Assembly (NCBI RefSeq): GCF_019976975.1
Contig: NZ_AP024630.1
Span: forward strand, 558,001 to 622,000
Direction of reading: 5' to 3'
Source of the DNA: Arthrobacter sp. NtRootA1
Lineage (GTDB): Bacteria > Actinomycetota > Actinomycetes > Actinomycetales > Micrococcaceae
DNA: 64,000 bases
The first letter of the stretch is position 1; every line of letters starts with the position of its first letter. A model generated the notes under the pieces. That model saw nothing but the letters and a program-made list of their open reading frames with translations. It did not search any database and was not told the origin of the DNA. Made by a program: the position numbers and the translations under genes. Shown here in pieces: positions 15,272-31,298 of the stretch.

Positions 15272-15569
15272 CTGTGAGTCTTGCAGTGGCTGGTCTGGGA
15301 CTAGCTGGCGGTGTTGATGCCGGTCGTTCTGCTTGGCGCGTAACTCGAAAAAACAATTGCCCCATCGTGGGCGTGTTTTCCCCGATTTGTCCGTGCTGGG
15401 TAGAGCGGCCGGTGCTGATCTTTACCACGTCGGTGGCTTGATCAGAGGCTTGCCCAGCCTCTGGAGGTTGTGGCTCATCATAGCTTTGCCTCGAAGTGAC
15501 TCTTCCCAAGTCCAGTGCCGGTCGTGCTGCGGCCTGTCCTGTCCGTTCGAAAGCAGGAGGGTGGCCGCG
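15272..15569 (+). ncRNA. Candidate bridge RNA region of the truncated IS110 element
   Basis: This 298-base left end corresponds to the non-coding part that encodes the bridge (seek) RNA in IS110-group elements. AAAAAACAA at 15348-15356, ending at nucleotide 85 of the element, is identical to the nine bases just left of the insertion point (15263-15271). The complete element has its own flank at the same offset. GTGCTGGGT (15393-15401) sits where the other copy has its right-target guide. The region may still be transcribed although its recombinase is broken. Confidence 0.6.
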
Positions 15570-15704
15570 TTGACTATCGTTGCGCAGACCCGCCCGTTCG
15601 TCATCGGCGTGGACTCTCACGCCCGCACCTTCGCCATCAACGACGCCGGTACCAACCTACAAATCGAGTGTGAGAAGTTCCCGACCACCCCGGCAGGGAT
15701 TTTC
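15570..15704 (+). pseudogene. IS110 transposase, 5' fragment
   Basis: A TTG start at 15570 follows AGGAGG by nine bases. The reading frame LTIVAQTRPFVIGVDSHAR, then FPTTPAGI, matches the N-terminus of the intact transposase at 29876-30940, including the first catalytic Asp of the DEDD RuvC-like domain. Similarity stops after about 45 residues. The remaining 85 percent of the protein, with its other catalytic residues, is absent. Confidence 0.75.
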
Positions 15705-15711
15705 CCTGCCG

Positions 15712-16091
15712 CCAGGGTAGGCCGGAGTACAGATGGCGATAAGGGGTGTCTGTGGGCCGTTGGCACCTGTCCAGGCGAACAACTCCGCGATCACCCCACG
15801 CCGCGATCACGAACACTGCCGCGAGGAGGACTAAGCCAGCGACACGGACGAGAATACGGCCGAGGAACACACTGGTGATGATCGCTTACGCAAGGGACCA
15901 CCTCACTTCCTACTTTTCAGCGTCTTCGTCGAGGCCGCGTGGTCCCAGGGACTAAGCTCCTGTCACCGCGCCCACGGCAAGCCCAAAGGCAGAATGGCGG
16001 CCTCGGCAACGTGTGGGAGCTGACGCCGCGCCGAGAGTAGTCCCGTTTGCGAGGAGTCCGGAGACACCGCCCACTGCTAACAGGGGAAGGT
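15712..16091. other. Degenerate region, no secure gene
   Basis: No confident gene is seen. On the minus strand a frame from GTG 15870 gives a hydrophobic start, FLGRILVRVAGLVLLAAVF, and runs into the broken IS110 copy near 15711; it could be the N-terminal stub of a membrane protein cut by the insertion. A second minus-strand stretch near 15980-16070 encodes a short hydrophobic segment with stops. Both look like remnants. Confidence 0.35.
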
Positions 16092-19513: not shown

Positions 19514-19582
19514 AAGCAACGCGGGGTCACTTACGGCCCATCCCAAGGGGATTTATGGGCCGTAAGTGACCCCGCGTTGCTT
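19514..19582. repeat. 28-bp-arm palindrome, shared terminator and IS110 target
   Basis: Positions 19514-19541 are the perfect reverse complement of 19555-19582, with a 13-base loop. The arms contain GTAAGTGACCCCGCG, once on each strand. The same palindrome (one loop base changed) recurs at 29849-31298, interrupted there by the IS110 element. Both copies sit at the 3' end of genes, and this one is followed by a T-rich stretch, so it probably acts as a terminator as well as being a dispersed REP-like repeat. Confidence 0.85.
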
Positions 19583-29848: not shown

Positions 29849-29860
29849 AGCAACGCGGGG
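29849..29860. repeat. Left part of the palindrome split by the IS110 element
   Basis: AGCAACGCGGGG is the outer left end of the same palindrome seen intact at 19514-19582. The remainder of the arm resumes at 31244 on the other side of the element. It lies three bases after the GGDEF-EAL stop, so the insertion separated this gene from most of its terminator. Confidence 0.85.
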
Positions 29861-29875
29861 ATCCTTCTATGGTTG

Positions 29876-30940
29876 TCAAGGGTGGCGTGGGTCCGTGTTT
29901 GTGGCGTTAAGGGTTCGGTAGGTCCGTCGGGCGAGATAGCGTTTCACGCACCGGCGGATCTCCTTTTTGGTTCGTCCTTCGGCTTGTCGTTTGTGGACGT
30001 ATCCGATGGTGGCCGGGTCGAAGGTCATTCTGCTCAGGGCGACCATGTGCAGGGCTTTGTTCAGGGTTCTGTCGCCGCCGCGGTTGAGTCTGTGCCGGAC
30101 GGTGTTGCCGGAGGACGCCGGAATCGGGTTGACCCCGGCTAGGGACGCGAAGGCTGCTTCTGAGCGGATCCGTCCGTGGTGGGACCAGGCGGTAAGGCAG
30201 ATGGCGGCAGTGACGGGACCGAAGCCTGGTTCCTGCAGGAGCGGGGCGGCTTCGCTTATTTGGACCAGTTCTGTGATTTGGCGGTTGTTGGTTTTGATGT
30301 CCGCGTCGAGCTCGCTGATGCGTTTGGCTAGCCGGACCCCTTCGGACCGGGCGACGGTCAGTGCCAGTGGTTCCTCCCGGGAACGCCACCGGGACGCCTC
30401 GGCGATCTGTGCTCCGGTCAGGGGTTTGCGGGCATCCAGGCCGAGGTCGTTTACGCGCAGGAGGGCGGTCAAGGCGTTGACCGCCCGGGTACGGTCGGTG
30501 GTCATGGCTTCCCGTGCGCAGACCAGGACCCGCAAGGCGGCGCGGACCCCTTCGTTCAGCCGTGGCTGGCGCAGCTGCTGCTCATCCAAGGGCAGAACGG
30601 CTGCGGCGATCCGGTGCGCGTCGAGCGGATCGGATTTACCGGTTCCCTGACGTGCATCCATGCGCGCGGCTTCGGCGACCTCGTAGCCGGCGGCGCCGAC
30701 CGCGCCGGCCAACAGGGCGCCGTAGGACGCGGCTCCTTCAACGACCCATAAGGCAGCCAGGTCAGCGCCGGTGTGGCGCGCGACCCAGGCGATGGCACGG
30801 TTGATGCCTGCCCCGGTGGTCGGGAAGGCCCGGGTGGCAATCAATTCACCGGTGCCTGCGGTGATGATGGCGTAGACATGGTTTTTGGCGTGCGTGTCGA
30901 CGCCGACGACAAAAGGACGGGAATGCGCGACGATAGTCAT
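29876..30940 (-). CDS. IS110-family transposase (DEDD/serine recombinase)
   Basis: 354 residues. The RuvC-like DEDD residues are visible: Asp15 (VVGVDTHAKN), Glu68 (WVVEGAAS), Asp104 and Asp107 (KSDPLDAHR). The C-terminal Tnp domain carries the conserved Ser (PASSGNTVRHRLNRGGDR, Ser276/277) that attacks DNA. A helical linker covers about 150-230. Length and motifs indicate a functional enzyme. It would work as a tetramer with the RNA encoded in the adjacent left end to excise, circularise and insert the element. Confidence 0.92.
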   Translation of the reverse strand: MTIVAHSRPFVVGVDTHAKNHVYAIITAGTGELIATRAFPTTGAGINRAIAWVARHTGADLAALWVVEGAASYGALLAGAVGAAGYEVAEAARMDARQGTGKSDPLDAHRIAAAVLPLDEQQLRQPRLNEGVRAALRVLVCAREAMTTDRTRAVNALTALLRVNDLGLDARKPLTGAQIAEASRWRSREEPLALTVARSEGVRLAKRISELDADIKTNNRQITELVQISEAAPLLQEPGFGPVTAAICLTAWSHHGRIRSEAAFASLAGVNPIPASSGNTVRHRLNRGGDRTLNKALHMVALSRMTFDPATIGYVHKRQAEGRTKKEIRRCVKRYLARRTYRTLNATNTDPRHP

Positions 30941-31243
30941 GGCGGTTCTGGCGTCTTCCTCTATTCGCGGATGTGGTCAGGGCCGTAAAACGGCCGGTAC
31001 CGGTCCCGGGTAGAGGTCACTTCGGAACAACACTGTGACGAGTCACGCCTGAGGGCGGACAACCTTCTGATCAAGTTACCGAGGTGGGCCGGGCGGTACC
31101 GGCCGCTCCACCCCGCGGACGGACAGATCCCACTCAAAGGCACCCTCTACAGGGCCAGTCACTTACAGAGTCACACCCGCGAGGCAGAACGACTACTACC
31201 ACTCTGCCAGCCAGTCCCAGACCAGCCACCCCAATCCTCACAG
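30941..31243 (-). ncRNA. Candidate bridge RNA region of the IS110 element
   Basis: Non-coding left end upstream of the transposase, read on the minus strand. GTAAGTGAC (31166-31158) equals the target's left half as it stands beside the element, and CCGCGGGGT (31118-31110) is complementary to the target's right half (CCCCGCG). The two would overlap by AC at the insertion point. Further downstream, AGAAGG (31068-31063) matches the element's right end and TCACAGTG (31038-31031) is complementary to its left end ACTGTGA, as expected of donor guides. This order (target loop, then donor loop) matches known bridge RNAs. Confidence 0.75.
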
Positions 31244-31298
31244 TCACTTACGGCCCATCCCGAGGGGATTTATGGGCCGTAAGTGACCCCGCGTTGCT
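31244..31298. repeat. Right part of the split palindrome
   Basis: TCACTTACGGCCCAT (31244-31258) completes the arm begun at 29849. A 13-base loop and the full opposite arm (31272-31298) follow. A second, unoccupied target GTAAGTGACCCCGCG remains at 31279-31293 on the plus strand. It lies 15 bases from the purL stop and still forms a shorter hairpin. Confidence 0.85.

Follow-up and report, generated by a model that had tools for sequence, protein, structure and literature searches.

A predicted guide RNA in the left end of an actinobacterial IS110-group element matches the hairpin repeat that the element occupies

Why does an insertion sequence of Arthrobacter sp. NtRootA1 lie inside a hairpin repeat, and what sets the base at which it inserts? 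The element was studied in a window of 64,000 nucleotides (contig NZ_AP024630.1, positions 558,001 to 622,000; coordinates below count from the window's first base). Reading this DNA without database searches had led to the proposal that the element's left end encodes a bridge RNA with guides for the element's own palindromic target. Our analysis draws on the element's anatomy, its insertion points, empty sites in relatives, a consensus fold and the covariation of both target guides and the left donor guide. It is very probable that this is an RNA-guided element of the IS110 group, in which a predicted left-end RNA pairs with both halves of the target and with the element's own joined ends, and insertion occurs at one shared C of a hairpin arm. 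RNA guidance is already known in the IS110 family; what this branch adds is a suggestion of how guides may move between host hairpins.

The element spans 29861-31243 on the minus strand (1383 bp), as defined by its junctions and by the empty site in relatives. Its identification as IS110 is borne out by Pfam domain matches, but the span first given to it, 29849-31298, was too wide and includes the split hairpin. Its ORF (29876-30940, minus strand, 354 aa) matches DEDD_Tnp_IS110 and Transposase_20 (PF01548 and PF02371), giving the DEDD RuvC-like domain and the Transposase_20 domain with conserved serine found in the IS110 group. Matches of this recombinase to solved structures were distant, at 37.9 bits for IS621 (8wt6) and 36.6 bits for ISCro4. 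Residues D15, E68, D104, D107 and S276/S277 align with the catalytic residues of IS621, the N-terminal part of that alignment being weak (10.8 bits). The ORF is preceded by 303 nt of non-coding DNA and only 15 nt follow its stop codon. The predicted RNA thus lies in a long left end and the right end is short, the layout of the IS110 group, and not in a long right end as in the IS1111 group.

All six full copies of the element in the genome (99-100% protein identity; four weaker matches were also found) lie inside the hairpin repeat at the same position, between GTAAGTGA and C, in agreement with the palindromic target first proposed. Their surroundings differ, with two sharing one loop sequence. 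At every one of the six left junctions GTAAGTGA is followed directly by CTGTGAGG, and at every right junction AGAAGGATC is followed by CCCGC(G/A)TTG. In the window, the left part of the split hairpin (31244-31297, minus strand) ends in GTAAGTGA and the right part (29849-29860, minus strand) reads CCCCGCGTTGCT. An uninterrupted copy, the intact palindrome, lies at 19514-19582; it and the minus-strand strings named in the sequence-only reading were all found where that reading had placed them. The exact pattern GTAAGTGACCCCGCG occurs three times in the window and 13 times in the whole genome, its reversed pattern not at all in the genome, and GGGCCGTAAGTGA occurs 27 times. Counted manually from the GTAAGTGACCCCGCG and GGGCCGTAAGTGA places, 20 hairpin loci have an exact inner arm and six of these are occupied. 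Of the 198 genomes searched within the genus, 89 contain the exact 15-mer of the hairpin and 57 contain a member of the element family (E up to 1e-100).

Empty sites were sought at the 3' end of purL, where 197 genomes gave a match and the best-ranked 19 besides our own genome were examined by eye (L210-L228). The hairpin stood at the orthologous place in 17 of these 19, with a shortened inner part in L214, and a different hairpin was present in L227 and L228. None of the 19 carried the element there. The empty site L211 is identical to the joined flanks of our element over a stretch that begins 34 bases left of the exchange point and ends 25 bases to its right. Insertion is scarless: a single C (31243 at the left end, 29860 at the right, minus strand) is common to both ends, and there is no further target duplication. 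The constant presence of a hairpin beside purL hints at a role such as that of a terminator between genes. An origin of the repeat from a REP-associated (RAYT) transposase was also considered and is unsupported, as the Y1 tyrosine transposase domain (PF01797) had no match in our genome whilst 5 of 14 control genomes matched.

To describe the predicted RNA (31015-31243, minus strand), a consensus fold was computed with RNAalifold from 29 left ends (alignment A2). It comprises a 5' stem-loop, a long stem interrupted by an internal loop, and a second stem-loop between the donor guides (31042-31060, minus strand; helix 7), in which four of the seven pairs show a compensatory change. The two sides of the internal loop carry the left and right target guides. 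Across the alignment 94.2% of cells were paired, and both-side changes occurred in 24 of 49 pairs, compared with 12.0 in shuffles (sd 2.1; 0 of 500 as high); these counts leave aside the pairs that the first six bases of the element form with the right donor guide. Sliding the structure by 1-3 columns lowered pairing to 28-49%, a control that favours the structure because it was derived from the same alignment. The fold energy of the single sequence was not unusual (z -1.55, with 9 of 200 shuffles as good; z -1.39, with 10 of 100) and is no evidence either way. In the genome, a covariance model recovered all six copies together with another full-length RNA and a partial match; it scored our RNA at 211.8 bits, the window being part of its training set. 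A search of Rfam returned no matching family and no bridge RNA family. The consensus fold and its compensatory changes support the predicted bridge-type RNA with two loops at the left end. Elsewhere in the genome, a partial bridge RNA lies beside an IS110 remnant (G000:C1:2205661-2206899).

The left target guide reads GTAAGTGA (31159-31166, minus strand) and is followed by a C (31158) opposite the exchange-point C, together the GTAAGTGAC of 31166-31158. Its assignment was examined across 95 left ends (69, and 26 more), five of them copies of our own element, which were located by [CT]TGT[GA]AG or a similar motif and reduced to distinct left flanks. Excluded from the statistics were loci with less than 58% identity or a start later than residue 2, loci without the left-end motif (L066, L070, L126) and L164 and L165; a column-based guide extraction, which mis-registered several rows, was also kept out. 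For the 49 distinct left flanks, the best ungapped 8-nt match to the RNA of the same element averaged 7.33 of 8, compared with 5.69 (sd 0.096) for shuffled flanks. Nucleotides 70-84 of the RNA held the best match in 45 of the 49. Among the 45 flanks matching at least 6 of 8 at the guide, agreement was 0.87-0.98 at positions -1 to -8 and fell to 0.13 at -9. Ten of the 49 flanks came solely from loci added after the guide position had been seen, and seven of these matched at least 7 of 8 there, four belonging to one A-rich cluster; L142, L145 and L162 failed. The left target guide stands as first proposed, since it covaries with the left flank across relatives. The cluster L144-L167, with left flank AAAAAACAA, is spread over many genomes with one A-rich target, CAAAAAACAA followed by C, and its members mostly gave no match to the right-end motif.

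The right target guide had been placed at CCGCGGGGT (31110-31118, minus strand), a choice that we now regard as highly improbable. The letters do match, 8 of 9 bases being complementary to ACCCCGCGT of the intact target, but in the consensus fold these columns are a paired stem. The same letters persist in L029 and L046 despite right flanks of ACCAACCA and ACTGGAGC. Nor did the site covary: at four offsets the observed match to the right flank was 1.45-1.95 of 6, and shuffling gave means of 1.59-1.88. By contrast, a nearby site, the five bases preceding a conserved GA[CT], covaries strongly with the right flank. In 42 distinct pairs, restricted to elements whose right end fits TAG[AG]AGNNTC, its match to the five bases immediately right of the C was 3.95 of 5, compared with 1.68 for shuffled pairs (0 of 5,000 shuffles as high), with the qualification that the GA[CT] anchor had itself been spotted by visual inspection of these elements. 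From +6 to +8 the match was near chance or lower. An anchor-free search with 6, 7 or 8 letters gave little or no signal (5.06, 5.41 and 6.03 observed; 4.90, 5.38 and 5.85 shuffled). As the guide had been misplaced, the overlap by AC deduced from it at the insertion point is also wrong, and the sole common base is C.

In our own element the covariation places the right target guide at 31129-31134 (minus strand), read as AGTGG or GTGGG. In the register of the family, AGTGG matches the target CCCGC at only 2 of 5 positions. Shifted by one base, GUGGG and CCCGC would form five pairs including one G-U, but an A would then stand opposite the exchange-point C. Our RNA has one base more than its 12 aligned relatives. 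The guide fits its target poorly unless moved by one base, and either register is possible.

For the donor, the first guide is AGAAGG (31063-31068, minus strand), which corresponds to the left donor AGAAGGAT in the right end of the element (29861-29868, minus strand). At the variable positions (AGAAGG, AGAAGA, AGGAGA) guide and right end agreed in 54 of 58 rows (duplicates included); of the other four, two disagreed and two were mis-anchored. The second guide, TCACAG (31033-31038, minus strand; within TCACAGTG, 31038-31031), is complementary to the element's first bases, CTGTGA. It is conserved in alignment A2 and too invariant for covariation. Both donor guides agree with the initial proposal, the left by covariation and the right by conserved complementarity.

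Donor and target were compared around the exchange point at 42 distinct sites for which both junctions could be read. They had the same base before the C in eight of these, the same base after it in two, and one or the other in nine. Because C is partly built into the motifs used to find the left and right ends, its sharing is partly so by construction; for our own element it is confirmed by the empty site. Our target reads A-C-C and our donor T-C-T, without the CT core of IS621. As a rule this lineage shares one C, whereas IS621 has a CT core with a near-invariant T (PMC11208158, PMC11208160). It is uncertain whether a one-base core is new, but it may be. The residue at the position of IS621 G63 was considered as a cause of the altered core and dropped, as both A and G occur there.

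From these parts a mechanism can be proposed. The recombinase would act with the predicted RNA from the left end. In the first loop of this RNA, 8 nt would pair with one strand of the target's left half and about 5 nt with the opposite strand of its right half, and the second loop would bind the joined ends of the element itself. The element, in circular form, would then recombine into the target at the shared C, with no loss and no further duplication. Since the left guide reads GTAAGTGA, insertions would fall in one arm of the dispersed hairpin repeat. The transcript, the circle and the strand exchange are proposed by analogy with IS621 and ISEc21. A TTGACA at 29874-29879 (minus strand) is possibly the -35 box of a promoter that would arise when the ends join in the circle.

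Several features of the element have counterparts in known systems. IS621, an IS110-group element of E. coli, likewise has a DEDD recombinase and a left-end RNA with a 5' stem-loop, a target loop and a donor loop. As proposed here, its left guide pairs with the bottom strand and its right guide with the top strand, and its targets are also hairpins (REP) (PMC11208160, PMC11208158). The 14-nt footprint found here (8 + C + 5) equals the length of IS621 positions 1-14 and would place our C at IS621 position 9. The two recombinases are only distantly related, and the host here is an actinobacterium. In ISEc21, an upstream non-coding seekRNA guides target choice and insertion occurs without duplication, as here, but ISEc21 inserts into certain transposase genes of the IS3 family, in a conserved region, and not into a hairpin repeat; its relative ISMch6 has been redirected naturally (PMC11187229). 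ISPpu9, ISPpu10, ISPa11 and ISRm19 of the IS110 family had all their copies in REP palindromes (7/7, 7/7, 6/6 and 4/4), in Pseudomonas and Sinorhizobium hosts, in a 2006 study that predates the discovery of guide RNAs (PMC1525189). ISKrh6 of Kocuria rhizophila, another IS110 element from an actinobacterium, is described as having a predicted seekRNA region, its exact ends and target being left open by that study (PMC12500396). Among the titles and abstract openings listed, from a search with subscription papers mostly outside its reach, none described our element or its hairpin.

Could the hairpin itself, and not its letters, be what is recognised? If the recombinase read the hairpin shape or the palindrome, the guide match would be incidental. 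Hairpin-like targets do occur in other lineages, since a right-arm match of at least 8 was found in the left flank of 7 of 58 sites (three of them our own copies; null fraction 0.014), including the Brevibacterium site L039. However, 46 of the 58 sites lack a right-arm match of even 7 or more in the left flank, left flanks generally follow the guides, and our own six copies sit at the guide-defined base. Recognition of shape is the least probable of the explanations weighed here.

A more serious contender keeps the left guide but dispenses with the right. The left guide alone might suffice, our own right guide being inactive and the hairpin merely the commonest GTAAGTGAC site. In its favour, our right guide fits at 2 of 5 positions when read in the register of the family. 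Against it, hairpin arms make up 29 of the 50 GTAAGTGAC sites outside the guides of the elements themselves (manual count), yet all six insertions are in them (p = 0.03), which weighs weakly. We consider this unlikely, though it deserves real weight beside guidance by both halves of the target loop.

Two other genomes, G170 and G158, bear on how guides may change. A different hairpin arm, GGGCCTCAAGTGTC, had 25 matches in G170, nine in G158 and none in our own genome, whilst GTAAGTGACCCCGCG was absent from G170 and G158. The G170 elements carry the guides TCAAGTGT and TTAAGTGT, and the G158 element L238 carries TTAAGTGA; G158 additionally carries elements with other guides (L054/L108, L109). 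In a protein tree the G170 elements and L238 grouped with our element with moderate support (80/84). L238 is possibly a guide intermediate between hairpin targets. It is truncated (171 aa) and occupies the older target, and its altered guide may therefore reflect decay. Tentatively, and leaning slightly to the doubtful side, we propose a separate actinobacterial bridge-RNA lineage with a one-base core (C; the left guide sets the preceding base, which in most cases is not that of the donor). Its guides would have walked by small changes between the host-specific hairpins TCAAGTGT, TTAAGTGT, TTAAGTGA and GTAAGTGA, including the one-base shift of the right guide described above.

Such a guide series suggests a possible route by which an RNA-guided element is retargeted as host repeats differ. 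Dozens of related elements allow guides and natural targets to be read side by side, and they yield guide-length rules (8 + C + 5) for a lineage far from IS621. If one base shared by donor and target suffices, the preference of IS621 for a CT core would not hold generally.

The sequence-only reading had named relatives that keep their guides but lie at unrelated sites as evidence against guidance; a check for these brought out a few exceptions and no pattern. Of the 49 left flanks, those of L026, L071, L145 and L162 matched fewer than 6 of 8 at the guide, and in L065 and L142 the best match lay off the guide position. The left flanks of L026 and L145, TAGAAGATT and TAGAAGGATT, resemble donor sequence; no recombinase gene was found upstream within 575 and 652 bases. 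These two elements may have inserted into donor look-alikes, as reported for some off-targets of IS621 (PMC11208160), or beside a lost copy. L112 (G168:C1:1022600-1025300), which deduplication of left flanks hides from the left-guide test, has guides ACAATCA and CACAG that misfit its site TTAAACGC/GATAAG. The guides of the L052 cluster do fit that site, and one element may have been replaced by another.

A second, broken IS110 element in the window (15272-15730, plus strand) has a full-length bridge RNA with a different guide at 15272-15501, located by the covariance model. In this element the left guide and the left flank, AAAAACAA, agree at 8 of 8 positions. Its ORF loses similarity beyond about 67 aa, and no right end was found. 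In L046, L047, L030, L064 and L067 the flanks resemble, by eye, codons of His-rich HNH or transposase genes, and these elements appear to lie inside the coding sequence of other multi-copy genes.
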